Assembly (NCBI GenBank): GCA_037833965.1
Contig: AP031353.1
Coordinates: forward strand, 15,874,501-15,938,500
DNA from: Marchantia polymorpha subsp. ruderalis
Taxonomy: Eukaryota; Streptophyta; Marchantiopsida; Marchantiales; Marchantiaceae
Direction of reading: 5' to 3'
Length of the DNA stretch: 64,000 nucleotides
The position numbers and the translations under genes were made by a program. Below, piece by piece: positions 3,001 to 57,287 of the stretch (positions are counted from its first letter, which is position 1; every line of letters begins with the position of its first letter). The notes under the pieces were generated by a model, which worked only from the letters and a program-made list of their open reading frames with translations, did not search any database and was not told where the DNA came from.

Positions 3001-6000
3001 CAGACTAGTACGCTACCGAGGAAAAGTCGTAGTCACTAACGAGATGGAGGTTGGGAACTGATGTAGTACGCAGAGAACACAAATTCACTATACCAAAGAG
3101 GATACAGTGTGAACACTAAGCATGAACTCAGTAACCTCCAACAAGCATTCGTATGGTGCTACCTCTGACAGCAAGTCTTGTGAAGGATTTTATGAGCTTA
3201 CTTTTCTGAATGTGACTAGAATATGGAACATTGCTGTGTGCTACGAAGGAGAATGACCAGGAGCGTCACTAAAATATGCCCATGTTTCTTTCAAGGTTTA
3301 CTCGAACCATGAATTAATCACAAACTTTGGCTCTTTCACCATAAGTAATGCCCTCCATCTCTAGCATGCTTTATATACCTCTAAATTCTGCATTCGATAT
3401 TTAAAGGTTAAGTACGCAATACCTTCAATGTATCAATTTTATTGTTGTCAATCGAAAGCTGTTCCAGCATTTCAAAAGAGGGAATTTCTCCACAACACGA
3501 AATACGATTTCGGCGCAGATCAAGCCTCCATAAAGCCTTGACATGCTTCAGTTTTGGTACCTGCAACGTCAGGGCACATCCAAATTGGCATTCGGACTAG
3601 TCGAGTTGCCAACTTAAGTGCTCGAGGACGCTATGTATTGGCAATTGGGGCACTCAAAACTTGAATTTGATTTGTTTCCGCCTTAAAGTGAAGAATTCAA
3701 TCTTTGTTGCATTTTCTATTCTTTAATTATGTTCACCTTTCCAGTAAAAAGGAAGGAGAGACTAAATCTGCCAGTTAGCACCTGAGTGATAAGGTTGTCC
3801 TCAAGAACAAGTTCTTCCAGTAAACTGCAGTTATCCAAACCCTCGATAACCGTGATTTCATTGCCAGATAGGAACAAACGCCTTAAATTTGGCAATTTAT
3901 CAAAGCAGTGCATGGTCTTGAGTTTATGATGCTCAAGGTGCACCTCCTCAACATCATCGTACCACGCTCGATCAGCCTCAGGTTGAACATAGAGCTCTCC
4001 TCTCCTTTCCGCCATATCAGAGCGCGGGAATACGGTGCAGGGACACACTCTGCAGGGGCTCATGCGATAGGGACTCAATCTGAATGGATCATCAAGCCGT
4101 TTCAAGATAAGATCATTGGTAAGGGATGCCCGATCTTCCAAATTATCCAGAGCATCACTTTCAATCTCGCCATGGCCTTTATCGTTGCCACCTTCAGATC
4201 GGCTCTCAGATTGAAGATCTTTCTCAGCAGATGGTACCGATAAGGCAGAAGTGAATGGTAGCAGGTAGCCCCATTCTGTTCGGGGTTTTGCGAAGAGTAG
4301 TGCTGGAGACGAGACATACTTTCTATCTGCCTCAACACGCTCCTCTGAACATGATGACAATACCTATAATAGCTACATTAAATTGATGAAATGCAGATGC
4401 AGAGATTCGAATGCAAGGGAGCTCTAAACTAAAACGAATAACTTGCTCAACAGGTAATCACTGCATTCATTCCTGAATTTAGATGGTAATCGGCGATCCT
4501 GTTAAAAAACCACAAAGTTAGTCCGATTTCACATAACTATGTCAGTTTTCTGAAATTTTAAATGTCTTAAGACGACCTCAGGATATCTCCACATCTCACA
4601 CGGAATATATTTCCTCGCTAATTATAGATCAAAAGGATCAGAGGAAGCACCAGACGAAGCCCCAAACCGATATCGAGATACTACAGAGTAACGAAGAAAA
4701 GCAAGCCAACCATCGTTGATTGTAAGTAGTTGAGCAATTAGATACATAAGAGTTCTTACCAGAAGAAATAGGATTACTGTCCAGCTCAACCAACGAAGGA
4801 AGAGCTCTAAGTACCATCATCGGATACTCCATGTCGTCTGCGATAGGATTATCCCTAAGATTAAAAGTTGATAACGTAGGTACCTGAAGAACATCAGTCA
4901 TGAAAATTCAGAAATCTAGCCAATGCAAGTCCTAAAGCCGACGCAAGAGTCATGGGGCCAATAAGTCCTTCAAGCAGAATTGAGTACAGAGCGGCTAATC
5001 TTAGTCATTCACTCTAGTATTTTACATGAGAAGATTTTAGAGTCCGTCTCGAGTTTTTTTTAAAGGAATATGAATTTCAGTCTAGGTAAAGGTTTTGAAT
5101 GTACTGCCGTAACACAAAATTCTCTATCCTCGTCTGAAGTGGGAAACTTTCCTCACCTGAGAATGAAGGTATGTAAAATCACTTGGGTTCCAAATCTGAT
5201 TTCCTCCAAGGTCCAGACTTCTTAAGGTGTCTAAACCATTCAATCCTTCTATTCGAGCTACCAAGTTATAACTCAGATCCAATTCCTCGAGAAGTGGAAG
5301 CTCATCAAGGCCCGTCATTTTGGAGATGTTGTTGAAGCTCAATATGAGGATTTTCAAAGAGCCCAAGCCCCGGAGAACGTCAACATTGTAAAGGTTACTT
5401 CCATGAAGATTGAGATTTGTCATAGACTGTAGATTTGAGGCACAACTCATTTTGAGAATATACTCAACGGACAACTTCACTACCGGATCTGCCAAGTCGG
5501 TAGAAGGCCTTCCAGACACAGAAGCGTCTAAGTTTCTTGCTTCGCACGGTGGACAATCCGTGCATTCCATGGATGCACGATCACAATTTTGATGTTGTGA
5601 AAGGTCTGAGTCTGACAGGTCCATCAACTTGCTCATGTCAGTCAAACACTCAACCCCTTCCCCTGAAATCCCAGGCGAACTTGGCGTTTGCCCGCCAGGA
5701 GTATTACTGTTGAAGAAGTAATCAAACTCAACCAAATACTCAGGAACCACGAGGGCAGCATCAAAGACGAACCATGAGCGTTGTTTTGAATCTGTCGGAT
5801 GAGATCTGTATACCGAATCCGCGTGAGGGTACGATGTTTTCTTCAGAACACTACCTTCACCATCGACTGCACCATTTTACAATTGCTCACGAAGTCAAGA
5901 TGTGCAAAGTAGATGAAAACAATCTCAGTAACATGGTGGTGATTCCCAGATCTGCATACACCAATAATACAGCTTGATATATTCCAAATTGAGATTGATA

Positions 6001-9000
6001 TTCCATTAGTACGAGAGAGACACACGCTAACCTCAAGCAAGACGTATGATTCGATGTGTTAAAACAGTGAAGAATGAAAAAACACATAGATGGTACAAGA
6101 AGACTAATTCCGATTCACATGTAAAGACAAAGAAAAAATACGTTTTCAATTTAACGGGACAGTGATAAAATCCGAGAACGTTGTAATCTGCTAAGAATCG
6201 TGCGCCACCACCACAAAATTATCCAAATCTGACAAAAATGGTCAAGAATTCAAGGTCTTAGTTCGTGCTTGTTACCCTTGTTACTTCCCCCGAATTCCTT
6301 CCTCCGCGGTATCTGCGTGTATTTGCATCGCACATCTTTTACAGATGTCCCAAGACAAGTCTTTACTACTAGCAGCCAGCCTGTCGTTCTGCCTTTTGGA
6401 ACCTCAGTGTGAGGTTGATCTGCAAATATCTGCGTAGGGATAACTCACCGTTAATAGCTACTACAAATCTCTTATTCAAAAACCGAGTTTTCGAGAGTGC
6501 ATGACCACTGCATTCATTATTGCGTAGTGTATAAAGAGTACTAACTAATTGAAATATCTGGTTGAACAACTAATGGTTCTTTCCGTTCTGCCAATGCGTG
6601 AATCTCAAGAGACCCAGAAGGATAAAAATGGTTATTGAGGTGAAATCAAGCTCGTAATCCTTGTTTCACTGTTCAATTAAAAGTAGTAAAACATTTAAAA
6701 TAAACTCCTCTTCGTTGAGGGAGGTACTTGTTTGATGTGGAGTTCGTTAATTCGCCAACAAGGGTATTTCCCGTCTCAAAGGGAGCGCGCAACTACTGTA
6801 ATATTCCTACATTTGAACAGAAATTTACTTGAAATAGAAATTCTCCAAAAGTATATGGTAGCAGTCATAAGACAAGATTAGTACCTTCAAACGACATCGA
6901 TCAGCAAGACCGACTGAATTTGAAAGTACCACAGGACTACTGCAACCATGGGCCACTCTTTCTGGAGATAGTGGAAACCCTCCTTCGACAATCCGCTGGA
7001 GTTCATCAGGTGCTTGAAATGTCTCTCCGCATAGCAGATACTCGACATTCTTGTTTCCAGATTTCAGCATCTGGAAATATAAAAGTTCAAAGTCAGTCTA
7101 ATTGATTGAATGAATTAAGAAAACATAAGTGCTGTACACTACAGACTCGAAGTATAAAATACACTGTCATTGCGGCACCCATAGGCTCCAGGTGAGAGAT
7201 TATACTCATATAACTCATTTGATCAACGGTTCCAATACCAGACTGTGCAACTCACTTTGGTTTCATGCTGCCTTTCAAACTGATCTTGTAGGAAGCGGTT
7301 GTGGATCCGAGTAACATTGTGAACTTGAACTCCACTGATGCCAAGTGGTGTGTAGTCATCGGCAAAAAACCTTGACATAACAAGCTCCACACAACTCTTA
7401 TACCAGACGTCTTTTGTATTGCCTATTTCCATGCGAATATTTCCCCCTAGAAACAGCAAATAGAATTCATGTTAGCTTGAACAGTAATTCCATCCCAAAA
7501 CAACTACGGGTAACGAACGGACAATTGATTCAGCACATCGGATAGAACTCGATACTGGAGCTATATACAAAAGGGTACTCTAGCATTCGAGGAATGCCAT
7601 CACAAATCGACAAGATAGGTGCTACCGACACCTAGAGTACCCTTTTGTATACTCTAGCATTCGAGGAATGCCATCACAAATCGACAAGATAGGTGCTACC
7701 GACTCAGATCGAGCAGTGTTCAAGGTAGCCTGTTTGCAAGGAATGGAGAAGTTGTATTAATGACGGTTCACTCCTGAGATTCTAATGTAGGAATGCTACG
7801 AATTGGTTAACGAACCAGAGTCAAGTTCAACCATAAGCCAGTGAATATTGAGGTCGATGGCAGCCTGTTCGCGCGCTCTGCTGAGCTGAAGTTCTTTGTT
7901 GAGGAAATCAAGCCTGTTCAACACCTTACGTTTGTGCTCATCTAAAGTTGCGGCTTTATTTCTGCAGTGCACCAACGACCGATTTCCTCTTTCTGGTGAT
8001 TCTGTCAATCCTGAGACAGACTTTTCCGTATCAGCCCCATCAACCATATTCTTCTCCACATCTTTGGATGCTCTCACAAGTTGTTTCAGTGTTCTGCAAA
8101 GCTTGGTCAACGATTTCCACATGCGTATATGTTAGCAATCTAGCAACCATGATAGACTGTTCATAAAAAAGGTATTTGCATATTGGTATTACTACGCTTT
8201 ATTGCTGTGGTTAAGCTAGTGCAGATCCATATGGCATAACTTGCTTTGAAAACTTGGAATCTCTATTGTTCGTGGCAATCTTATCTCTAAAAACGTTGAC
8301 ATTGCTCTTTGGTAAGCTGAAGGACCTTACTTCTGTAAGCCCTTGATACGCTTTGACTCAACTGGGAAGGTGTTGACATTAGCTCTGCTCTGCTGCAAGG
8401 ACTTGATGCACATGCTGTAGTACACCCTTTTCCTCGTGTACGTAACCCGTGCTGCCTGCTTGGCTTCTGCAGTTAGCTCTAGAGTATCCAGCTTTTGAAG
8501 ATTTTGAAGACGAAATAGTATATATGTCTGTGTTGCACCGAACAAGACAGACTCGAGTTAGTCAGAATGACAGTGGCCACAAATTTAGTGCCAGTGGTGG
8601 TATCAGATTCCTTAAAGTTCGCACAAACTAGTATAATTTGTTTCAACATTGACCTTCACCGCTTTTGACGGCTCCCCAGATGATTCTACCTGATAGTTGT
8701 GAAGTAGTGAAAGTGGACTGGGACCCCAATGTGGATCTGAAAATCGCAGATCTTTTAACTTTTTCAACCTTGTCAAATTGCCAATTTCCTGCACACGGTA
8801 CCCAATGAACAATACAACTTCAGTGTTGCTGGTAAACTTGCTCTGATTCGGTGTACTACGCACAGACCAGCTTACAAGACTTACTTTTTCTCCTTACAAC
8901 TACTAGCAATTGCATCCGGATGTTAAAGTCAACAATACGTGAACTGAACTGGAGTTCAGACGATTCTCAAGCAGTTTTACCACCAAACGTCGAAGTTTTT

Positions 9001-10306
9001 CCTTGGCATGAATTAAAGAGAATTCTTATTTACTCTTGTACACCGAACGACACAACAAATAAGAACCTTGTAAGTCGTAGGTGTGAAAGACGGAGATCAC
9101 CTTGAATGACCCAATGTCTGTGGCAGAGACGTTCAGATACTTCAAGGACTTCACTTTTAGTATGTTGCCAAGCTGGGTCAACGGATTTCTTGCCAGATTG
9201 AGTTCTTTGAGTTGCAAGTTTTCCAGCCCATCCACCCATCTTATGAGATTGTTGGCTAACCACAACACTCTGAGATTGGTAAGGTGACTAAGATTTGAGA
9301 TACGCGTAATGCAGTTGTTGTGTAGAAGTATCTCTTTTAACTTCAAACAGTTACTTAGTCCCTCGATCCTGCACCATTCATAAACTAGACAATAAGAGAT
9401 GGCCTGCTCCAGGTGTAAACACTTGTGAGCAAAGAAACTTGAATTTGCTGCGCAAGTTTGAAACTGACAATTAAAAAACGTACGTATCATGGGCATATAT
9501 AAATCGATTTTATGAGCAGTCGCTTCCTTCAAAAGGCACGGGATAAAGGCGAACTTATAGGATCCAACTTCACTGACAATGTCAAACATCTGTCGTTCAC
9601 ACAAAACATTCATACCTCTGAATTTCGTTTTCACTCAGTCTCAGAATCTCTAAGTGTGGAAGACAATGAAGGCCTTCGATGCTCCTTAAGTTTTGCTGGA
9701 CCAGAGAAAGTGATGTCAGGTTCGGGAAGAACGTCATGCAACATATCCGAGGGAAGTTGAACAAGAACATCTCAAGAGTTTTGATGTTCTCGGGATCCAT
9801 CAGCTGCTCTTCACTGATGTCGTTGTATTCACATATATCTTGCAGTGCTGTGGAAAACGCAGAACCGAAAATTCAGAGGACAGTGTTTTAGTTTTCCCAC
9901 AACCCAAAGGTTCATGTCATACTCATCTAAAAGTCGAGCACATATTTTGTAAGCTCAACTTGGAGTGAGGTAATTCTTAATTAATCTGCTTCACCACAAG
10001 GAGAACTTTTAGCTCCGTATTTTCGACTGAAGTCTGAAAAACAGTTCTTGATGCCAGGTTAATAATACGTACAGGCCCAATTCTCATTGACCAACTCTTA
10101 TTTCTTCTCACTTAGCTAATCAGGCCACGCTCTCCGATGTCATATAGACCCGATTACGAGCTGATAGGTAGTCAAGGACGGCTGTCTGCTTATGCAAGGA
10201 GGAACTACTTGATTACTCTTAATCAAGACAGATTCCGATCCATACCTTGACTCTCATCTGTCGAAACGAAACGCAACATCTCTTTCAAGCTCTTATTCAT
10301 CGCCAT
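1..10306 (-). CDS. LRRC9: LRRC9-like leucine-rich-repeat protein, 3' end beyond the window
   Basis: Leucine-rich-repeat protein resembling animal LRRC9, a large family linked to cilia and flagella; in a plant it would act in sperm flagella (inference). Start ATG is 10304-10306. Exons I support: 10246-10306, 9616-9847, 9101-9368, 8690-8788, 8331-8527, 7816-8093, 7256-7446, 6885-7070, 5157-about 5850, 4778-4883 (end uncertain), 3782-4363, 3423-3560, 2767-2949, 2191-2313, 1922-2043, 489-801 and 136 to the window edge. Repeat blocks show the LxxLxLxxN pattern, for example LKILILSFNNISKMTGLDEL. A non-LRR insert, with RFSDPHWGPSPLSLLHNYQ and then a K/R-rich helical stretch, is the family hallmark. 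Phases agree at nearly all joins. The exon between 5.85 and 6.88 kb and the join between 4.36 and 4.78 kb are not resolved. Introns reach about 1.1 kb. Confidence 0.9.
7566..7703. repeat. 54-bp direct repeat plus 18-bp inverted repeat in an LRRC9 intron
   Basis: Two identical 54-bp copies lie at 7576-7629 and 7650-7703. The 20-bp spacer between them contains 7632-7649, which is the exact reverse complement of 7566-7583, the 18 bp overlapping the start of the first copy. The block sits in the LRRC9 intron between 7447 and 7815. The identity of the copies suggests a recent event. Confidence 0.95.
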
Positions 10307-14107: not shown

Positions 14108-17100
14108 TCACAGATCCTCAAACACTTTCTGGTCATCAGGAGTGAGCACAAACTCATGCTTCATAGGCTCCAGTTTCGAATAATCATCAAAGCATGTAGC
14201 ATCATCATCCGCCTGCAAGCTCAAATACATTAGGCTGGTTCAATACAATATCCGATGTACATGATCTCTTCTAAACCTTCAACCGTGAAAGGAAAAACTT
14301 TTTTCGGGGCTATTTATATAATTGAGTAGGTCCGATGAATGAAAATACTGATGGTGAGTGGAGTGAATAAATTTTAAAGAAAAAACAGGGTAAGAAAATA
14401 CTTAGGAGCAGATTATTGCAAACATGACAAGTTGGTGCAATACCGAGACTTTAGGCCTTATAGGAGGAGCATCCTTCTTGTTGTAAACGTTGTCCCAGTT
14501 TGTAGATGAAAACCATGCATGTGTTTTAATCTCCTCCACTCCATTCTTCAGGCAACCGATTCTGGTCATGACAAACAGACCAGAATGATTTTCAAAAGTT
14601 TGCAATGATCCATCAATGGAGTAACGATTCCTACTTCCACGAACAGATACTCAATCGCAACAAGCTTTAATTCTCGATGTCAGTCAATGATTCTGTAATA
14701 GTGTAGGATAGGTGCAGAATTTGCAACTTTAATCTTGGCAAAATATTTACACTTGGCCGTTCCAACCCAGCAACCCGGTTTCAGGAGAAAAAGGGAGAAA
14801 CAAATTTTCCTGTAATATATTTTGGGAATCTTTATTCTAACTTGGGCTAAGCAGTTAAACTAGCTTTCAGCTCTTTGGGTTTAAGTAGTAAAAATGCACC
14901 GTTTCGTAAGATCAGCAACCAAGAGCCTCCTGATCAGATCCTTGGCACTGCAGCGCTCATTCCAAGCACGGAATAAAGTTAGGGAAGACTCTCAAGTAGG
15001 GAAGCTGGTATTACTGACTAAATATAATCTTTATAATTTGTGGAAATATGACCTTCATTGGGTACACAGCAGATAAAAGTCATTGGTAATTCTAGTGCCA
15101 TCATTCTTGGCACACTGTTCCAGTTGTTCTGTTTTAGTTCATATTGGTTGCGTAAGCTTTTGGACCATACATAGGGTACTGTATGGGATTACTCATTCGC
15201 TAAAAGAGATCATCCTCATGCAACCAATTATGACAACGAACATATTCTTGACTGGATGACTTAAATTGCTTAGACCCTGCGACCTACCTCTCTGAAAAAT
15301 GTTTTGGGTACTTCACTTCTCCTTTCAGGATTTTTTGATGACATCCAATGACCTCTGCAACCAACCATTTTAGAGTTTAAGATTCTAGTACAGAAGGCAA
15401 TCTCGTGACCTACCTTCGTGAGAAATGTCCTGGGAAGTTCAATCTTCCACTCAAGATTTTCTGATAAGTGCCAAGGGCGTCTGCAACCAAACATCATACA
15501 GCACGTTCGCTTATGGTATCCAAGCCTACCCACGAACCCGAGACTGTTTCTCAAACAATCACTCTGATACAGTTCAAAGTATGTTCAATATGTGCTACAT
15601 TCTCCTTATCTTTTGACCTACAAGAACAAATAAGGTCCTCATGCAATAACCCTTAATAGCTTGAAAGTTTCACCAAGAGATACTACAGGCAAGAACCGAA
15701 CCATCATCATAGAAGGGTGGATAGCCAGCCAGCATCTCAAAAATTAGTACGCCATACGCCCACCTGCTCGAAAAAAATTGAAGATATCTTCATTATTGAT
15801 TTGTAGTCTGAAGTCTTATCTAATGTTGTTGTGTTCAGATACGACAAACATGCACGAAGACACCTTCGGAAAACTCGTGATATACCTCACCGTGATTTAA
15901 CCATTGTAATTCTTGAGGTTTCAAGTCTCACCAGTCTACCGGTTTTCCATGACCTTTGTTGAGGATGATTTCTGGTGCTAAATAATCAGGTGTCCCTGAA
16001 CAGTTAACGAAAATCTAAATCAAGGACGTCATGGAAGAAAATCAGCATCGAGGTCTACACTAACCATTTATATGACTGTTACTTGCTTATATGGTGCACA
16101 TGAACTGAACGATCACTCTATCGTTCTAGTTCTTTTGGAACTCTTTTCTCATATACTTTCAGGACATTGCACTCAGCCAGGAAGGACCAGGCAATTACCA
16201 CATAATGTGTATGTTCTTCGATCAATCTGCTTGGCAAACCCAAAATCGGCAATCTTGATATTCCCCTTGTTATCAAGAAGCAGATTCTCGGGCTGTACAC
16301 ACCCACAACTTTTCGGGTTTTGATTGGCACATCAACTAAAAACAAAATTATACTTTTTACAGCTGGCTCTCCAGTGTTCGTTACAGTGGAAGAGAGTGTC
16401 CATGTACACGTACAGAAACAAGTATTCACGAGCAATATGTTATGCACCTTTACTTTGTGAAATAAAAAGGAAGAATTATTACATTTCCACTTAAGCTGCA
16501 CCCAGTGCACACACAACTTATGCACAAGGATAAGCTTACCGTCTGCTTAACATTTGACAGGCTACTGCCAGTTTTGTCAAGCATAGTAAAGGAAGAGTAC
16601 CTTTAAATCTCTGTATATGATGTCCATCCCGTGAAGATACTCAAATGACAGGAGAACTTGTGCTGCATAAAATCGCTGCCAGCCACAATGTGGTTACTAG
16701 CAACCGTCAGGAACCAAGGAGCATAACACAAGTGAACTCATCGGTTTTATAGGGTTATTTTTGTTGTCCTGAGTATTTGATCCACGCAATGAGTATCTGG
16801 GAGTACCGGGTTCACTAAGTGAACCCGACCTAAACTATGAAGCGTAATGACCATAGCGGTTGGCAAAGTAGGTGGATTTACAGATATCCAGAATCAACCG
16901 TCTGGACAAAGTTATGAATTATTAACGCATAGCCAAAGCATTGACGTATGAGGCAGTGTGTTTTGAGGATAGCCTCCTCAAGCTCGATCCTGTATCAAAA
17001 TCTGGAAAGGGTTGATCCAGAAGGAGGGTTGTAGCCAATTTATGAAAAGATTAAAAAATTGTGAATAAAAGCAGAAAGCAAGACAGCAGCATTATGGATC

Positions 17101-26072: not shown

Positions 26073-27953
26073 CTAGGGTACACCGGCGGGAGCGACGGGC
26101 TTGCGACTGCTGCTGCTGTTGTTGTTCGAGCTGCTGTTGGAGCCATTGTAGGTATCTACTAAACCGTCGACCAAGACTTTGTGGGCGATTTCTTTCTCGG
26201 CTGCGTCCTTGGACAGGTCCCGCGGCGGGACGGGGTAGTTTCCCGTGAAGCAGGCGTCACAGAAAGTCGGGGCTTCGGTGCCGAGCATGTCTCTCAGTTT
26301 CTCCAGCGGCAAGAACGCGAGCGAGTCGGCGCCCACGAATTTTCTCGTGTCCTCCACGTTGAGTCTGTAGGAGATGAGCTCCTCTTTGGAAGGAGTGTCC
26401 ACTCCGTAGTAACACGAGCCCAGGATGGGCGGACTGGCGATTCTCAAGTGCACCTCCGTCGCTCCAGCTTCCTTGATCAGCCTGACAATCTTCGACGACG
26501 TAGTTCCCCTGACGATGGAGTCGTCCACCACCACCACCCTCTTGCCTTGCAGCACGGGGCGCACGGGAGCGAGCTTTAATTTTACCCCGAAATCCCTGAT
26601 CTTTTGTGAAGGCTCAATGAATGTGCGGCCCACGTAATGCGATCTGATCAAACCCTGCTGGAAGGGAACCCCGGCTTTCGCCGCGTAGCCCAACGCAGCC
26701 ACGACTCCGGAGTCCGGCACGGCGATCACGACATCGCACTCCACAGGGGCCTCTGTGGCCAAAATCTCTCCGAACTTGTACCGAGACTGATACACCGATA
26801 GACCAAAAACGACCGAATTCGGCAGAGCGAAGTAGATATGCTCGAAAATGCACGCCTTGCGTTGCCTTTGCGGCATAAGGCACAGCGAGCTGATTCCGTC
26901 CTTGTCGACAACCACAACCTCTCCAGGGTGTATCTCCCTCTCGTACTCTGCTTCGATCAAATCCAACGCACAAGTCTCGGAAGCAAAGACGACAGCTCCG
27001 TTCTTGCGCCGCCCCATTACCAGGGGGCGGAATCCATAAGGGTCCCGAACCGCAACGAGCTTATCCTCAGTCAAAAAGACCATCGAGTAGGCACCTTCCA
27101 GCTGCTGGCAGGCGTCCACAAGACGCGCAATAAAAGGCCGGGCCTTGGAGATGGCAATTAAGTGAAGAACCACTTCCGTATCGGAAGAGGTGTTGAAAAT
27201 GGAACCATCTTCCTCCAACATAGTCCTGAGCTCGTTGTAATTCACCAGGTTTCCATTATGAGCCACTCCCACGGATCCGAATCTGTACCCGGCCACGAAA
27301 GGCTGCACGTTCTTCAGCACGGATTCTCCAGCGGTGGCGTACCTCACGTGTCCGACGGCGGACGAGCCCGGGAGCTGAGTGAGCTTCGACTGGTCAAAAA
27401 CCTCCGAGACTAACCCCATGCCCGTGACGGAATGCAGCGAGCGCTCATCACAAGTAACAATGCCCGCCCCTTCCTGCCCCCTGTGTTGCATCGCGTGCAG
27501 AGCCAGATACGCGAGCCGACTGGCCTCGGAATCGCCGAAAATGCCCACCACTCCACACTCTTCCCGCAGCATATCGCCATCTTCCTCGTCGTCCTCATCG
27601 TCACCGCCGCGCCTGCCTGCGAGCCATCCCACCATGGGATTCGGCTCCTCCTCGACCACTTCGGCAGCGCCCGCAGCAGCAGCAGAAGCCGAAATTCCCC
27701 GCCGAGCCGACTGCTGCCCATACCCTGCTCTGTCTCCGCTGGACGAATTCACCGGCAAGTCCGCCGCGGCGGACAATCGACATCGCAGATCGCCTGCAGC
27801 TCGTTGCGCTCTTCCTTCAGCAGGTCCGACGACACTCACCACCCTCCTCGAGAAGAGCTCGTTCCCTCCAAGAAACCTGCTCCTGCCGGAAGCAACAGAC
27901 TGGGCCTCCAGACCCAGCGCAACATTGCTCGTCGAAAGTGCGGTGGCCGCCAT
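26073..27953 (-). CDS. ASE: Amidophosphoribosyltransferase, plastid-targeted, single exon
   Basis: Catalyses the first committed step of purine synthesis, PRPP plus glutamine to 5-phosphoribosylamine. The protein has 626 aa in one uninterrupted frame. Residues 1 to about 100 are Ala/Ser/Arg-rich with few acids, as expected for a plastid transit peptide. An acidic linker lies at 118-126. The mature N-terminus should be Cys133 of EECGVVGIFG, the glutamine-amidotransferase nucleophile. HNGNLVNY (232-239) follows. The PRPP loop is VVVVDDSIVRGTTSS at about 473-487. Cysteines 368, 514, 565 and 568 match the four 4Fe-4S ligands of the Bacillus-type enzyme. The Asn/Ser-rich end (603-616) is species-specific. 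No introns are needed. The start is the first ATG of the frame and gives a full-length protein. Confidence 0.97.
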   Translation of the reverse strand: MAATALSTSNVALGLEAQSVASGRSRFLGGNELFSRRVVSVVGPAEGRAQRAAGDLRCRLSAAADLPVNSSSGDRAGYGQQSARRGISASAAAAGAAEVVEEEPNPMVGWLAGRRGGDDEDDEEDGDMLREECGVVGIFGDSEASRLAYLALHAMQHRGQEGAGIVTCDERSLHSVTGMGLVSEVFDQSKLTQLPGSSAVGHVRYATAGESVLKNVQPFVAGYRFGSVGVAHNGNLVNYNELRTMLEEDGSIFNTSSDTEVVLHLIAISKARPFIARLVDACQQLEGAYSMVFLTEDKLVAVRDPYGFRPLVMGRRKNGAVVFASETCALDLIEAEYEREIHPGEVVVVDKDGISSLCLMPQRQRKACIFEHIYFALPNSVVFGLSVYQSRYKFGEILATEAPVECDVVIAVPDSGVVAALGYAAKAGVPFQQGLIRSHYVGRTFIEPSQKIRDFGVKLKLAPVRPVLQGKRVVVVDDSIVRGTTSSKIVRLIKEAGATEVHLRIASPPILGSCYYGVDTPSKEELISYRLNVEDTRKFVGADSLAFLPLEKLRDMLGTEAPTFCDACFTGNYPVPPRDLSKDAAEKEIAHKVLVDGLVDTYNGSNSSSNNNSSSSRKPVAPAGVP

Positions 27954-28860
27954 AAGGACTTGCCCCTCCCTGCACTTCAGAGCCTGCGAGTGACAAAGAC
28001 CAACTGATCCTTCCTTTCCTTTCTACTACTGCCCCCCTCCCCCCACGACCTCCGAGCTCAGCTGCGATCCGCTTTACTCTGCTCTGCCCTGCTCTGCTGC
28101 TCTCGTGGCAACCTTCTCTGCTCTTCTCGTATGATCTCAGCTCCTTCTCTCCCTCACCTTCCTTCTCTCGCGTGTTCTGTTTCGGTTCCCGGTTCGTCCC
28201 CTGGAACCACGCGACCATAAACCCTAAACATTTCACAATCTCGCAGTAGCCTGGGAACTGCGTCAGACGGCTGACGCCGTCGAGCGAGTTTATCTTGGGA
28301 GGGAGCTCTTGTAGGGGCGTGGTGGCCCCCATGCTCCTGGCGGGACAAGATACCGAACTGTGCGAGGGGTTGCTTTGGGATCTTGGGTTTGATTCTCGAG
28401 AACAGAAACTGGACGAGGAGAGGAGGCCATGTACGGGACACGTAAATCCGGCCTCCATCTCCATGCCCGTGCGGCGACTTCGCGACGGCTGCACGCAGTC
28501 GTCGCGATCTGGGGGAAGATCGTACTGCCGTAGAGTACCGAGGGGCAGCCCGTCAGAGGCTGACACGTGGAGAGGAAGGGCCAGATGCTGAATTGTTGTA
28601 AAAGCGTCGACTGTTCGATCCCTGTCGCGATGTCGACCGGCGACGTCCCAGTACGGCCTTTGGACTGCTGTGGCTGTCGTGGTTGCCCTGGGGAGGGAGT
28701 TGCAAGTCTTCGAGGGTGGGAGGGGAGGGGAAGGGAGGGGGGCGGAGACTGGGACGAGCTGAGCTGAGATGAGCTCGCCCATGGCATATGCGGATAAGGT
28801 AAGGGACACGCAAGTCGTAAACGGTTACAGTCTAGGGGAGCTCGCACGACGGGAGCTGCT
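27954..28860. other. GC-rich 5' region of the purF-type gene
   Basis: Likely promoter and 5' UTR on the minus strand. It is C/T-rich on the plus strand at 28.0-28.17 kb (GA-rich in the transcript) with long G runs near 28.71-28.75 kb. A 330-codon open frame that overlaps the gene in another frame is judged a composition artefact. Confidence 0.5.
28219..28227 (+). promoter_or_regulatory. telo-box (AAACCCTAA)
   Basis: AAACCCTAA, the plant interstitial telomere motif known from promoters and 5' regions of growth-related and translation genes, lies 266 bp upstream of the amidophosphoribosyltransferase start. One copy only, so the regulatory role is inference. Confidence 0.4.
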
Positions 28861-31638: not shown

Positions 31639-34600
31639 TCAATGGGGGGAATTCAAGCTAACTTGTATTCCTCTCTTCGCCCGATCCTGCTCTTGTTTCC
31701 GCAATATATAGCAATAGTTCACCTGCAACAGAACGGAACGTCAGATTTCTCATTCCAAAATCTATTTCAAAATTTTGTTTTAAAACACTTGGACGTGAAA
31801 TCTCAGAAATAATGAGGGAGACTTCGATCTACCGACAGTTCTATTAGTAAGTAAAATATTGAATGGCACAGTATATGGGAGCCTCTAAACGCACCTCGAG
31901 ACGGAAGAGCTTTGTAGGGAATACAAGCCCAGCACCGTAAGAAACACGGAAAGTATCCAAGAAACCCTTAAACGAAAATTTTGGGCGATCCTCCCCAGTC
32001 AGTGGTACTAGGTTTCCAGCACATGCGAACGCATGCGCGTGAACACCCCATTCCCTCAATATCCTGACTGGCAGGTCCATTGATAGATCTACAAAACTTG
32101 AAACTGCGAAATCTCCACCCAAAGTATCCACCATCGGCGGTCTTTCCTCTGCACCAGCTTCGGCTTGTGCAGTCGGTTGAGGAACAAGCCTGGCAGCATT
32201 CGGACCTACACCTCTGGTTCGGAAACCCAAAAGAGCCGATGGCCCTTTCAAATTTCCAAGCAATGATGAATGACCTCCCATAAAATATCGATCACTAATT
32301 GGGGTCGCTTTTGAAAGAAAATTAGGTCCCCATGGCATGATGATACCCCCAGCAGCGCCAAAATTCAAAGCAGCATTCATAAATCCCAAAGGAACGGCGT
32401 ATCTTAGTTCAAACTCCTGCGCACAGAAGGGGGACAGCACATGGTAACAACGTAAGACAAAGGAAAATACGTATATTGATTCCTCTAAAAATTTAGCCGA
32501 ATTTTAAACCGGTTTTTCTTATCGATCAGGTCTCAACAGAAGACACCAAGAACTCAGATGAAAGGGCCTGCATAGTTATGATAAACACATAACAGACGGT
32601 TGCTTTTGACAACGTGAAAAACGGGGACAGTCACTTGAAACACTAGTAAGAAAAAAAGAGCAGACGGAGACATAAGCCAAGAAAACTTTCTCTGCAATAA
32701 TTTGCAGAGAAGCAAATCTGGTCTTGGTTCAGATGCTGTAGCAATTTTTCTTTCTGAAAGGAAATGAGAGTACATTGGCAGTGATCTCCAAATCTTCTAA
32801 GGGACTGACAAGATGATAACAAGCTAACCATCTCATTTTTGGTGATGTACGTATGCAACCTAACCAAGGTATTCGTAGACGGAACATCTCTGTGCGATGA
32901 TTAGAGACTTATGTGGACAGCGTACCTCAGTCAACAAAAAAGAGAAAAGAAGTGCACAGAGCAGTTTTTACCTTTGTCTTTGTGACTTAAAGCTCCAAAA
33001 CAAACTCTCATCCGTTTCTAAGGAAGCAACCACTTTCTCGATCATCGTTCGGCAGTGTTCTAATGTAATTTCCAAAAAAAGAATAACATACTGACTCGCA
33101 TACTACCAGGCTTTACTCTTCATCCTATGGAAGTAAGCAAGGACTTTTAGTCCAGTTTATAGTTAGACTTGTTTTAGTAACGTCTGAAAATGAATACTCG
33201 TCTGTGCACATTTTCCACGAAAGAAGAAACCTCTTCTATAGAGTTCATGGAAAGATCCGGACCAAAAGATCCGGACCATTCACTGGACCTACCTCACCTC
33301 AAAACATGAGGATGGAGTAGTCTTTAAGACTCCCATAAGAAGGAACAAATTACAAGCGAAAGGCCCAGGTGGACATCAGGAGATATTATAGTTCTACAGA
33401 CTCAAACGACGTCCAGTGTTCCGAGTCGCAATATATCTGACTTTTCGTTTTTGTATTGACTTCTCTCAAATCAAACTATGGGAACATCAGAAGCATTCAA
33501 ATTGTTTGCAATGAAAACGCACATCCTGTGGAAGAAATTTGGCCATATATTTTGTTGGGAGAAATAGGTGTAAACCCTAAACAACGTCAAGGACATACCT
33601 GTCGGGCAAATCTCAACAATTTGTCATCAGGTCCAAGTCCAGCAAGCTGAGAAGAGGAAGTGAATGCGAATCCCTGTGTAGGCCGCATAGCAGAATCTCT
33701 CTCGTCAACCTTGTAAGTATACTTCACGGAAGACAACAGATGATGTCCCAACTGCCTTCTGATAGCATGCGATGCTTGACGTGTGGGATCCTCCAGTTCT
33801 CGCCATGTGAGGTTGTAGCTGAGATCATGGCTGTCGTCATTGATCAGACCTACAGAAAACCCTTTCAGCCGTTCTCGATAGGAAGAGTATTTTTGCCAGT
33901 CTTGAGTAAGTATTGTTGCGCGAGAAACCAGCGAACTTTGGAGCCCATGGAAACGAGGATAATTGATCCCAGCACTCAACTCTGAGGTGGTATCCCATCC
34001 ATAGCAGCCAGTTGCATCTATTGTTTCACCGTAACCCAGCAGATTCCTCCACTTTACAGTACCGTCGAGGGTCCATGTCTTGGTCTAAAAAGAAATGATC
34101 ATGCAGCGAAATAAATTCAGATGATGCCTTAATGCCGTGAGAGTCAAGGAACTTACAATTGGATAAGAATTTGTCTTGGTAGTGCCACTAAGGGACCTGC
34201 AGAAGCCAAATTTGAATATCGGATGTTGTTTACAGTGCTCACCTCTGGCTTAGAAAATATGCCCACGTCGCCCGAAAAGGGGCGCTTTGATTCCTCCACT
34301 TCGACAATGACATTAGCTGTTCCTGGGAGCTCCTCGGGACCAGCATCAATGGTAATTGTACACTTTTCAAAAACTCCCAACCCTCGGAGTCGGGCATTCG
34401 CCTTGACAGATTCTTGCAAGAGCTCTTGCATTGTCCCCGCTCTCTTGACCTCATCCAATTGAGCTTCTAACACACTGTCTTTGGTTTTCACATTTCCCCT
34501 AATCTGGACATCGTGCACACGAATCTTAATAGGTTCTTTCGCAAGCTTCTCCGAGAGTTTCTTGGCGAGTCTCGGGGCATCCCAGAGCGGATCGTCATCA

Positions 34601-34788
34601 TCGTGATCATCATCGATCATCTCCTCCTCATCGTCGCCCACCTCTTCCGCGTCCTTCGCCATTTCCGCCTGCTCTACCCTGTCTCCTTCCTCGTCGCCCA
34701 GAGGACTCTTCGTCGCGTCTTTCTTGCGCCATTCCTCCCCGCCGAACTCAGTGACCTGCTCCTCCTCGTCCACTTTTTCTGTCCCCAT
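31639..34788 (-). CDS. SAM50: SAM50-type Omp85 protein of the mitochondrial outer membrane
   Basis: Core channel of the sorting and assembly machinery, which inserts beta-barrel proteins into the mitochondrial outer membrane. Exons: 34243-34788, 33599-34084, 31895-32416 and 31639-31722, all joining in phase 0, giving 545 aa. Residues 1-66 form an acidic cytosol-type head. One POTRA domain follows at about 86-170, starting IKIRVHDVQIRGNVKTKDS. The rest is the 16-strand barrel, with the Omp85 signature region LLGFRTRGVGP in exon 3. The last exon, 27 codons, gives NYCYILRKQEQDRAKRGIQ and the C-terminal beta-signal-like end. The short acidic head and single POTRA favour SAM50 over plastid OEP80. 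No plastid transit peptide is visible. Confidence 0.95.
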
Positions 34789-37700
34789 TGAGGATTGCGC
34801 GCAAATTCACCAAACCTACCACTTCTCGAATCCGCCCCCTATTCACCTGCAATTAAAAGGCCATACGACACTCGCATCACTTGCACCATTCGGGCCTTGC
34901 AACGCAAGCAGCCCACTACGGCAAATCCAACCAACGCATGCAAAACCTCAAACACTCGGACCGAATCCTGATCGCCATCCACGACGCAAAACCCCAATCG
35001 GAGAAGCAAAACAGGCCCCGATCGACACGCAGCTGACCGCACGCTGCACTACCCACACTGAGTGACTCACCCAGCTGTGCTCCGGGACAGGTCACAGTGC
35101 AGAGCCATGGGAGGGGAATCTCATGGAACGCGCGCATCAGCCGAAACGAGATCGGATGCTCGATCTCTCGCGCGTACGTCGCCCGTCTCGCCCGTACCTC
35201 TTGCCCTCCATGCGCGACGCTATTGGGCCTCCTCAGCGCGATGGTTTCTTCCCCTTCCGCTCGAGGAGTGCCGACCTCTTCCCGTCTCCGCAGCCTCTCC
35301 TCGTCCTCGTCCTCGTCCTCCTTCCTGCTCTTCTCGTTCCCACACGCCCGAGCGCAGCGCCCACGAGCAGCCAGGCGCCCTACCACGTGGACCCCGCCCT
35401 CGGACTACGTTGCGCGCATGAGAGGCCAGAGCTACCCGGTACAGTCCCGGGCAATCCTTCTCCTCCATCTCTCTCCACCTGAGGTCGCCGTTTACGTCGT
35501 TCGGACAGGAGCTCGATGCGTACACGTGGCGCAGTACAATGATTGGATGCAGTGTACGTCCATTGCATTTTCTCGATAGAAGCCCAAGAAGGAAAATTGG
35601 CACACATGTAGAATTTTGCGAAGGTCTCCGGGAAGAATGTGAGAAGATGTGAGCAACGAGCTGTTCCCTGCAGCCAAAATTGCAGTGCCATTGGAGTCTG
35701 CCTTCTCGGGCGGGCGGTGCAGGGAGGACTCGTGTGCCCCTTCTGGTATCCTTGCCACTGTTCGACTTGTTATTGAGAAGCAGTCGAGTTTCTTAAACCG
35801 AACAGTTCTTGTGCGGTATGCCGCTTAGGCTTCACTGTGGCGTAAGACGCTTATCTTGACAAGAATGAAAAAGGAGTGAAAAAGGTTAGCATGTTGGAAG
35901 AGTTCTCCTTTACTCCTTTTGATCGCTAGTTTTCATGCATTCTGAAAGTCTGTCTCTGCTGTGGATGATCACAAATTCCAAAGAGGCGAGCAGTTGAGAC
36001 TTCAAAGGCACACGCAGCCTACCATCACGATGTGGCTTTTCGAAGTTGGAATCACACTTTAGTCGTACCAATATCCTGTCCAGACACATAACTAGCACAA
36101 GATGGTTGAGCCTTCTGAGCTCATTATAGATCTGAATTCCGAGTTGAAAGAGCCTCATTGCTACTGTGCTGAGAACAGCTAAAGCCTATCATGGGTGAGA
36201 CAAGCCTTTCTCTGAAACTTTGAGCTATCATCGGAAGTGAAAACGATACTGGTCCCAGACCTACAACCTTATGAGGCCATGGAAATCAGGTGCGGAGAAG
36301 AAAAACGAGGGACAGAGAGACGCCACCAACAAGGTCTTCTCGATGTGCTTTTTTGATGGTCAAAAAAACAAAACAAAAGTCACCCTGAATAATGTATCAA
36401 TCAGACCGACTTCTTTCTCACGTGGTTCTCACCGATCGCCAAAATCATCAAGAGCTGGGTATCTCTATTGTCCGTGCGATCCAAAATTGGTTGCATATTG
36501 CGAGGACTGATAGAACATATTCGGTGTGCTTAGTGCAATGACTGAATAATATACAGAGTTTTGGAATCTGAAGGACAAGACCCTGCGACTTTTTCTCCCT
36601 TGAGGCACAGCGGATTACAGTTTTCTTAAGATGAGATCCATTAAGTTGTGAGCTGATAGTCCTACACCGTGGGCCAAGTAGACTAGATTTAACATATTTT
36701 GGCTGACATTTGTATGCAGTGTCTGGAATTCCAGGCGTAAATTTATATGAGCCCTTGAATATAAGAGACCCTTGAAAGAACAGAAATTTCGTGTTCTGAC
36801 GAACAATGCCTGGTTTGTAAGAAATTCTGAGAGAGCTGTAAATTCCAGCCTGCCTGCAGTTCGGTGTGATCTGGTTTCGTCCAGATTTCTCACCTTTGGC
36901 ACTCTCCACGAGGCTCAGAGGGGGCATCCTTTCGTCTTACCATATCAGAAAGTCTTGTTAAAGCTCTGGGATTCTTTGACCCAAAGTTCTAGTACAACTG
37001 CCTGTCAAGCATGTTATGGGGTTCGGAATCTGGGAGGATTAAAGTCAAAAGGCGTCACTGCAAGCGCGTGGATACGGACCTAGAGAACATATAATCTCCA
37101 AAAGCAGTGTAAAATAATTTTAACGAGCACGTAACCTTAACGTCACTGAGCAGCTGGATCATCTGATCTGTAGTTGAGGTGACTCTTGTCCCGACCTGTG
37201 GACCCAAAGTAGCTAACGAGCTGGGTACGAGCAAGTTGTAAAGCTGAACAGACAGGTAATTGAGCTGGATTTCGCTGTGGACATGTTTTCAGCCAGAACT
37301 AATCCTTGGCCCCTACTATTTCTTAGCTTGAAGAAACAGAACCTTGACCTCCAGCAAGATACCGCTGGCTAATGGGTCATGGGGAGCTCTCGAAAAACAG
37401 TCTTGAAAGTGCAGAAACCATGGGTGAGATGTCGTGTTCGACCGAGAGCCAAGGCTTATGCTAGGCGATGCATGCCTAGAATGGGCCTTGATTTCTCCGC
37501 AGCTGCATTACGAAAAAAGTTCCTGAAACCTATGGTATGACTCGAACTCCGACCTCGCACCATCACCTTGAGAGCTTCGCTGGAGACTATTGCGTACCAC
37601 CATTAGAAACAGCCTCTGTTTTAGACCTCGTCAGACTTGATAATCGACTGTCGTTCGTCGACGTCGGTTTGCATGTTGAGAAAAGCAAAACAATGAGCTT

Positions 37701-54700: not shown

Positions 54701-56708
54701 CCAAAACCAAATCCAGATCATTCACAAAAAATGAAATTTTATTAAGGTCCACTTTAGAGCACAGAAGGTTGTCAAATGGAACTTCCAATATTGGAGTGTA
54801 GCTATATAATCACTTTTGTAAAATAGTAACGTAGATGTATTGGAGATAAGAGATTACAGTGACTGAATAACAAAGCCGGCTAACATCGAGATATAAATCG
54901 ATAATACCATTCAGTAATTTGAAACCAAAGATTCACTATAATCAAAATTAAGTTAAGATAAAGAGTAGAAATCTCAAAGCTTGCGGAGATGCACCCTTAC
55001 ATCAATAAGTGATTTCATTATATTTTCATAGTTAAAGTATAAGTCTAAAGTTAGAAAACTAAGACTCGAAATCTCCTTATATAGCTAAATTTGAGGACAT
55101 TGTTTAGAATTAATTTGAATCTAGCCAATCAAGAAATATATGAACACAAACAAGATTTATTTATTTAAAATTTCAAAAAAATTCCAACACATTTGATCAT
55201 CTATCAAAATTAACAAATCATGTAAATATTTATTTTTTAAAATCATTATTTGACATTGTTTCTCTTGCACCTAAAGAGAAAATATTTATAATCACCAATC
55301 AAAATGATCTAATCACACTTGATCATGATTCATGTTACAAAAGCTTGCCAAAAGATAGTTTTGGACATAAGATGATTCTTAGATTTCCAGCTTGGAATGT
55401 ATTGCGAGTGGGTTTGAAAATGCTTTCAATATTACCTTCATAATACCCGGTCATTTCATAAAGCTAGGAAATTATAATGAATTAACATAACTTCACATAA
55501 TTGAAGAACGAGTTGTATAGTCTATTGCTTTGATCATTACAGGTTGTGTACTGATATTCTACAATCATATACACTATATATATATCATGAAAGATATATA
55601 TATATATATATATATATATATTCTTATCGATAACAATTTGAAAATTTCTTCATTCCTTGACTAAGTACTTTAATTACAAAGAACTGAAAGTTAAGTTATG
55701 AAGTTTCTGGAATTATTGCCTCAATACATATTACTTCATTTTCATGCAAATGTATGAAATTGTCATATGTTGTATACATTGTTATGATACGAGATTTGTT
55801 AGAGGATTTGGTATCACTTTAATTGCTGCATTTGCCAATTAGGTATTGAATACTGGAATAAGTTACTATCGTGGACTTTTGTATTTAGTATTTTATAGAT
55901 TCTCCATTATCATTTCTCGTTAACTCATACAACTTCTTTATATCAATTATTATTCAACTAGAATCACATCACGCTTGATGTAATTTAATGGACTGACTGA
56001 TCTTGGAGTTTTCCGTGACATCAAAGTATATTAGACCTACGAGTTCTGAACTGGGGAGACATGCATGTGAGTTTTGCATATTCTAAAGGTTATGATTGCT
56101 ATGACAATTCTAGCAATTCTTGATAGTTGCTCGTTCTCACCAACTTCTAACATGGTGGCTACAATTAAACTCATCCTTCAACCCTTGGAAACGTCGGAAG
56201 TGAATGGAAGATTATATTCGTATACCGAGAACTAAGGAATGAGCTCCCGGCTTACATTTGAAAAAAGTTGAGGAACCTTATTACAATTGGACCACAAGGC
56301 AGTCCATGGTAATGAGTTTTCAGTAGATATGGAAACTCTCGAAAGGTTATGGATGCGGGTCCAGTCCAGGCCAGCAATCAGAAAGTTGGAAATCTAGGGC
56401 TGCTGGAAGCAGTGGGTGACCATGCCCGCCGCCGCACTCCAAATGATCTCGTCCTGTGCATGCATTCGGAGAAACAGACTGACGAATCATGGTGAACAGG
56501 ACTGGATGACTCGAACTGGTCAGCTGACAGAACTCTGAATTGGAGGTTGCACTAAGCTCCCGTCTTAGTAATCAGCTTTCGTAGTCGCGGCATGTGGTCG
56601 ACAGCAAATCACTAGCGTGCCCGTGAGCTTCGGATCGATGGTTGACTGCTGCATTGGGTGTTCTGTCCTTCAAAACGATTTCTGTAACGCAGTTGCCCCT
56701 CGGAGACT
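54701..56708. other. AT-rich, gene-free stretch
   Basis: Strongly AT-rich and CpG-poor from about 54.7 to 56.05 kb, then of normal composition up to the SET gene, whose promoter probably lies at 56.4-56.7 kb. No domain is recognisable. Confidence 0.5.
55574..55621. repeat. (TA)n microsatellite
   Basis: Two nearby TA runs, 55574-55584 and 55594-55621, inside the AT-rich stretch. Confidence 0.9.
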
Positions 56709-57287
56709 ATGACGGGGGCCATGTCACATAGCGGACACTCTGCCACAGCCGGTGCAGCAGATTGCGCCGAGGATGGTTTATTGTCCTTCAGCTCTGCGCA
56801 GAGCATCGATCTCCATCCCGTCGCTCATCTGAATACATTTGGGCTCGAAATCCGATCGACACCTGCCAAGGGTCGAGGCGTCTATGCTACGAAAGACATC
56901 CCGGGGGGCTGCATTGTTGAGATCTCCCCCGTTTTGCTGATTCCCAAGGAGCAGTATAAGGCAGGAGTGAACCAGAGCGAGCTGAGGAACTATGTGTTCA
57001 CCTGGAGTTGGGGCCCGGGGAGAGGGGGCAGGAATGGAGACATGGCTCTGGCGCTGGGATTGGGAAGTATTTTCAATCACAGTCGACGTCCCAATGTCTC
57101 GTACCGATTGCGATCGGACAATTTGACGATCGAGTATACGAATACTTCGGATATTCGTGCAGGGGAGGAGCTGTGCATTTACTACGGGAACGTGCGATTT
57201 GAAGAGGAGGAGCTGGAGGATGACGATGACGATGATACCAATTGGGAAGAGAAAATGGCAAGATTGGACGTGTTTGACAACTCTTGA
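56709..57287 (+). CDS. Small single-exon SET-domain protein
   Basis: SET domains transfer methyl groups from S-adenosylmethionine to lysines, usually of histones but also of other proteins. The protein has 192 aa in one exon and consists of little but the SET core. SET-N is KGRGVYATKDIPGGCIVE at 54-71. The LGLGSIFNHSRRPNVSYR block spans 116-133 and holds the NHS cofactor motif. AGEELCIYYG at 151-160 has the catalytic-region tyrosine. There is no pre-SET or post-SET cysteine cluster and no other domain. An acidic patch (E/D run 165-176) follows. This short stand-alone architecture, with CIYYG, is shared with plant and fungal proteins of unknown substrate. Base composition is more GC-rich than its AT-rich left neighbour. 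ATG 56709 is the first in frame; a second Met lies four codons on. Confidence 0.87.
   Translation: MTGAMSHSGHSATAGAADCAEDGLLSFSSAQSIDLHPVAHLNTFGLEIRSTPAKGRGVYATKDIPGGCIVEISPVLLIPKEQYKAGVNQSELRNYVFTWSWGPGRGGRNGDMALALGLGSIFNHSRRPNVSYRLRSDNLTIEYTNTSDIRAGEELCIYYGNVRFEEEELEDDDDDDTNWEEKMARLDVFDNS

Follow-up and report, generated by a model that had tools for sequence, protein, structure and literature searches.

Mutually exclusive exons that arose by tandem duplication are a known kind of alternative exon. In JNK, exons 6a and 6b form an alternative exon pair in the C-lobe of the kinase, and the twin exons described here resemble them as apparently exclusive alternatives for part of a protein kinase's C-lobe, although JNK is an animal MAP kinase and the twins belong to a plant protein kinase A (PKA) gene and encode its αG segment. 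Exons 4a and 4b of OGDH are described as duplicated exons that are used singly, the branch points of the intron between them lying under a steric threshold of about 50 nt from the 5' splice site, and one twin supplies the enzyme with a Ca2+-regulatory motif (PMC7969005). The OGDH case is from a vertebrate and has mapped branch points, whereas in the plant kinase the whole intron between the twins measures 59 nt and its branch points are predicted only. In the docking-site and selector-sequence arrangement of the Dscam type, duplicated acceptors share a motif that can pair with a complement elsewhere (PMC6071210); the plant twins likewise have two acceptors sharing a motif and one downstream complement, but unlike in Dscam-type docking, their pairing energies did not exceed chance when compared with shuffled sequences.

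Several catalytic subunits are also made from single PKA genes of animals, as in the Cα 1/2, Cβ 1-4, and exon 4-skipping variants (PMC3625193). According to the same source, the human variants differ in their 5' exons or by the skipping of exon 4, whereas the plant gene exchanges a segment of the core C-lobe. A 2018 review treats the existence of working cyclic-nucleotide-dependent kinases in plants as controversial (PMC6174285), while a 2016 paper on the antheridium of a liverwort reports an adenylyl cyclase and refers to a cAMP-dependent kinase being expressed there (PMC5159850). Among the titles and abstract beginnings listed in searches of an open-access library, we found no plant PKA with an exon pair of this type.

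A complete PKA catalytic-subunit gene was found on the minus strand at positions 19819 to 14108 of the window, by which we mean the entire 64-kb stretch of DNA analyzed. It runs from ATG to stop in 12 coding exons, the ninth of which is present twice (Table 1), with GT-AG borders at every intron and an in-frame stop 5' of the ATG within the 120 nt examined. By sequence similarity the gene encodes a catalytic subunit of the PKA type, matching PKA-C better than PKG or other kinases, which bears out its earlier identification as a plant PKA catalytic subunit. Among the best 60 of 147 PDB matches, the protein with exon 9A (isoform A) scored up to 362.4 bits with PKA Cα, 318.1 with yeast PKA type 1, and 275.0 with PKG1; for the protein with exon 9B (isoform B), the corresponding values among the best 60 of 145 were 360.3, 314.6, and 270.3 bits. 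All of the catalytic motifs were found in the spliced protein, namely, GTGSFG of the Gly loop (residue 79), ATK for Lys72 (101), QEKG for Glu91 (121), and YRDLKPEN (195), together with DFG (215), TYTLCGTP with the activation-loop Thr (226), and APE (237). Pfam matches of each isoform were confined to two kinase families, with no cyclic-nucleotide-binding domain, unlike in PKG. The AGC C-tail contains FDDY and terminates in F-E-D-L, with Leu replacing the last Phe of FxxF.

Table 1. Exons of the PKA catalytic-subunit gene and associated features, as positions in the window
Feature	Position	Strand	Basis or remark
Exon 1	19819-19637	minus	spliced gene model
Exon 2	18872-18711	minus	spliced gene model
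Exon 3	18536-18415	minus	spliced gene model
Exon 4	18087-18033	minus	spliced gene model
Exon 5	16675-16601	minus	spliced gene model
Exon 6	16292-16199	minus	spliced gene model
Exon 7	15995-15932	minus	spliced gene model
Exon 8, common to both isoforms	15763-15702	minus	donor ATG/GTTCGG, on the weak side
Exon 9A, αG segment, Tyr at PKA position 247	15480-15414	minus	gene model, structure alignment
Intron between the twins, 59 nt	15413-15355	minus	gene model
Exon 9B, αG variant, His at 247, Glu at 254	15354-15288	minus	gene model, structure alignment
Hairpin, candidate docking/decoy element in intron 9B-10	15232-15141	minus	folding, shuffles
Exon 10, common to both isoforms, holds out-of-frame TGA stops	14947-14900	minus	gene model
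Exon 11	14561-14444	minus	spliced gene model
Exon 12	14212-14108	minus	spliced gene model

The twin exons proposed in the preliminary description were recovered with matching phase and splice sites. Each is 67 nt long, preceded by TTGGTTGCAG and followed by GTAGGTC, and similarity between the two extends slightly into the introns over these motifs and then declines. The twins are identical at 45 of 67 bases, whereas elsewhere in the window, on either strand, no ungapped match exceeded 34/67 for 9A or 36/67 for 9B. A repeat finder reported the pair as two 95-nt copies with 73% identity. At the protein level, recomputation gave the same likeness as first described (10 of 22 residues in common), and in a protein scan of the window the pair scored 60 to 62 points, the next best being 27 or 32. 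The ungapped DNA scan and the protein scan revealed no third copy of exon 9 in the window, nor did any of the other 11 exons have a second copy there above chance level. The pair appears to stem from a single exon that was duplicated in tandem long ago.

The reading frames of the twins apparently leave exactly one of them as the productive choice. Either 9A or 9B alone gives an open frame of 384 amino acids. The combination of both leads to a stop in exon 10 (328 amino acids), the skipping of both to a stop after four codons (VPRI*, 276 amino acids), and retention of the 59-nt intron to a stop formed by the 9A donor's TAG (295 amino acids). The preliminary description had predicted a TGA in the next exon for the first of these and a TGA four codons later for the second, and had reasoned that exactly one twin must be chosen; both stops are where it placed them, and its reasoning is supported at the level of the frames. 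The usual rule for nonsense-mediated decay (NMD) sets a distance of 50 nt between a stop and the last exon junction. Since the stops of the two-twin and skipped forms lie 130 and 152 nt before that junction, these forms are NMD candidates, and NMD probably removes products with both twins or neither.

The 59 nt between the twins compare with 168 to 1,357 nt for the eleven other introns in the model. Goodall and Filipowicz, in 1990, reportedly placed the minimum length of plant introns at about 70 nt, and some plants may splice shorter ones. Adenines of this intron that keep a distance of 10 nt or more to the 3' splice site all lie within 46 nt of the 5' splice site, and the branch point candidates of the form YTNAN are at 36, 37, and 44 nt. 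In vertebrates, a steric limit of about 50 nt between the 5' splice site and the branch point has been described, by which an exclusive exon pair is enforced (PMC7969005). 9A would hardly ever be joined to 9B, because this vertebrate limit exceeds the distance of every possible branch point from the 5' splice site. A YTNAY motif was found no more than 60 nt upstream of 9 of the 12 acceptors, the exceptions being those of 9A, 9B, and exon 8; its lack at the twins fits two competing, weakly marked acceptors. When donors were scored with approximate plant weights, those of 9A (9.73) and 9B (9.12) were the two highest of 12, the next being 9.02, and the exon 8 donor was the fourth weakest (4.67), which is not exceptional in this gene, where donors 4, 10, and 11 score lower.

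We consider it probable, at roughly 0.75, that exon 9 of this PKA gene was duplicated in tandem to give a mutually exclusive exon pair enforced by the 59-nt intron, with the frameshift and probable NMD as a second safeguard and two kinases as the outcome. Both twins would be spliced in vivo, and the 59-nt intron between them would stay unspliced. Transcripts containing both twins, neither, or the retained intron would stop early and probably be subject to NMD. The productive transcripts would encode two full-length kinases differing in 12 residues of the αG helix and the loop to αH, isoform B having an altered grip on the regulatory (R) subunit or on substrates.

This reading depends on 9B being a functional exon. 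Its 67 nt contain no stop or indel, and its acceptor is intact. Both twins are credible versions of one C-lobe segment, as had been claimed: isoforms A and B scored 361.1 and 358.9 bits, respectively, against the PKA structure 1atp, and the Pfam Pkinase score of B (226.9) was slightly above that of A (223.3). Even as isolated 22-residue peptides, the twins matched PKA-C in 56 of 56 (9A) and 56 of 57 (9B) of the PDB matches listed, though weakly (best E values, 0.045 and 0.46). Against one PKA Cα segment, 9A and 9B had BLOSUM62 scores of 60 and 56. The residue of animal PKA is found at Ile244 and Val255 in B only and at Tyr247, Ser252, and Phe257 in A only.

Neutral decay was simulated by 22 random substitutions, with 20,000 runs in each direction, using as the reference the same single PKA Cα segment; a profile drawn from more of the family would be preferable. 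Decay from 9A gave a mean score of 7.8 (standard deviation, 14.0), and the value of 56 with an open frame was reached in 2 of 20,000 runs; decay from 9B gave a mean of 6.0, and 60 was reached in none of 20,000. The similarity of the twins to each other, 62, compares with a neutral mean of about 32 and was equaled or exceeded in 265 and 289 of 20,000 runs. Because random decay almost never retains such a fit to PKA, it is very probable that 9B is a genuine exon. The preliminary description had concluded that both copies are under selection, and the simulation supports that conclusion. Its argument, that the peptides have diverged while keeping the core pattern, is too loose, since dN/dS is near 1 (0.83 to 0.89 on only 22 codons; NG86, 0.43/0.48; YN00, 0.44/0.53) and the base differences are spread evenly over the codon positions (8, 7, and 7), with no excess at the third. 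The support for selection is in the kind of change, not in its rate.

The same ratio and even spread leave room, taken by themselves, for relaxed constraint on one copy, and they are what could be expected if 9B were a recently dead copy, formerly functional and now unspliced, with 9A alone in use. It would also agree with such a copy that B departs from the PKA residue Tyr247 and differs in charge from Lys254, and a loss only a few substitutions old would go unseen. Against this, the PKA fit of B is close to that of A, at a level that neutral substitution so rarely preserved, its frame is undamaged, and its donor is the second strongest of the 12 by the approximate weights, so that we regard a dead 9B as unlikely. 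A contig search with isoform A matched 15 stretches, two of which encode kinases (one 41% identical, the other a fragment at 38%), neither of them informative on the twins, and the viral contigs gave no match to isoform A. The 41% identical PKA-like kinase is at positions 3929 to 4842 of a 6.3-kb contig (L001) in a bin labeled Rickettsiales and is probably eukaryotic contamination.

Competing RNA pairing could bias or enforce the choice of twin, instead of or beside the short intron. Such competition has been proposed to arise when one stem arm is duplicated along with an exon (PMC6071210). In the plant gene, an GCAACCAA element of intron 9B-10 (15151-15144) would hide one acceptor at a time, its possible partners being the 9A acceptor, the 9B acceptor, or an intronic decoy at 15227. 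A span of 576 nt on the transcript strand contains four copies of the motif TTGGTTGC (at 15490 and 15364, at 15227 in intron 9B-10, and at 14922 in exon 10) and a single copy of its complement, with five further sites on both strands of the rest of the window. As many copies plus complements in the flanks were seen in 3 of 20,000 shuffles (direct copies by themselves, 31; complements by themselves, 546), for a motif that was picked after being noticed and with overlapping words that count the decoy twice. The intronic copy (15227-15220), which is as in both twin acceptors, and GCAACCAA, complementary to both, form the arms of a predicted hairpin (-25.9 kcal/mol; z score, -3.77; 0 of 200 shuffles as good). 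The predicted duplex of the element is strongest with the 9B acceptor (-24.2 kcal/mol), followed by the 9A acceptor (-19.2) and the decoy (-17.0). However, when introns 8 and 9B-10 were paired with the four twin splice sites, none of the eight best duplexes surpassed those of shuffled introns (159 to 924 of 1,000 at least as good), the best partner of the 9A acceptor was a stretch other than the GCAACCAA element, and in the predicted ensemble the element is paired with the decoy and leaves the acceptors free of it. The idea of an RNA switch in intron 9B-10 is a lead only, and that pairing enforces or biases the choice seems to us improbable.

Two further features of the locus were recorded. 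The 11-nt sequence TTGCATGAGGA (transcript orientation) is directly repeated, once in each of the introns that flank the twins (15213-15223 and 15636-15646), and is absent from the rest of the window. The exon 10 acceptor (14940-14949) is perfectly complementary over ten bases to 15467-15476 inside 9A, which could be chance in 881 nt.

The least probable of these readings is a dose switch in which the forms with both twins or neither are NMD targets lowering kinase output and the choice of twin matters little for the protein; it accords with the early stops of all non-exclusive products tested, those of the two-twin and skipped forms being separated from the last junction by over 50 nt, but it leaves the PKA-like peptide in both copies unexplained, as one unconstrained out-of-frame exon would suffice.

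Exon 9 aligns to PKA Cα residues 242 to 263, which we take to be the αG helix and the loop to αH, and all 12 residues at which the isoforms differ are within it. At position 247, A has Tyr and B has His; at position 254, which is Lys in PKA, A has Arg and B has Glu. Position 196, at which Trp196 of PKA contacts the R subunit, is Tyr in both isoforms, and yeast PKA likewise has Tyr there. Tyr247 is described as a contact for both the R subunit and the P+1 residue (PMC3625193, PMC13167742), and two anchors are reported for the P+1 residue of the PKI peptide in the ATP-bound form, the P+1 pocket and Tyr247 of the G-helix (PMC13167742). The substitutions H87Q and W196R have been reported to disrupt the interaction of R and C subunits (PMC3784516). 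The swap would most likely affect the grip on the R subunit or the choice of P+1 residue, and the grip of isoform B on the R subunit or substrates would be changed because Tyr247 is replaced by His and Lys254 by Glu.

If only one twin is used at a time, one gene would make two kinases that differ in a partner-gripping helix, and two kept versions of the R-subunit and P+1 helix in a plant PKA would point to inhibition or targeting tuned by splicing. The twins would constitute a natural A/B experiment on αG and a compact model of mutually exclusive exons for plants. A further reading, and a rather unlikely one, is a splicing switch in which A, with Tyr247, is an R-subunit-controlled PKA and B, with His247 and Glu254, has weakened R control or another P+1 or docking preference, the choice being made by tissue (for example, sperm-forming versus vegetative) through acceptors competing for one intronic complement.

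Other reading frames were noted elsewhere in the window. On the minus strand, a stop-free frame of 649 amino acids (26073-28022) had chloroplastic amidophosphoribosyltransferase 2 as its best structural match (811 bits; next, 460); this chloroplast-type neighbor of the kinase gene favors a plant origin of the window. Two frames at 31844-34806 on the same strand, with Omp85 (31844-32503) and POTRA (34153-34806) domains, perhaps belong to one chloroplast envelope outer-membrane protein; the Omp85 frame had no PDB sequence match at an E value of 0.001. Three leucine-rich-repeat frames (Pfam LRR_4) at 3716-9634, also on the minus strand, possibly form one gene, and a SET-domain frame (Pfam SET) lies on the plus strand at 56688-57287.
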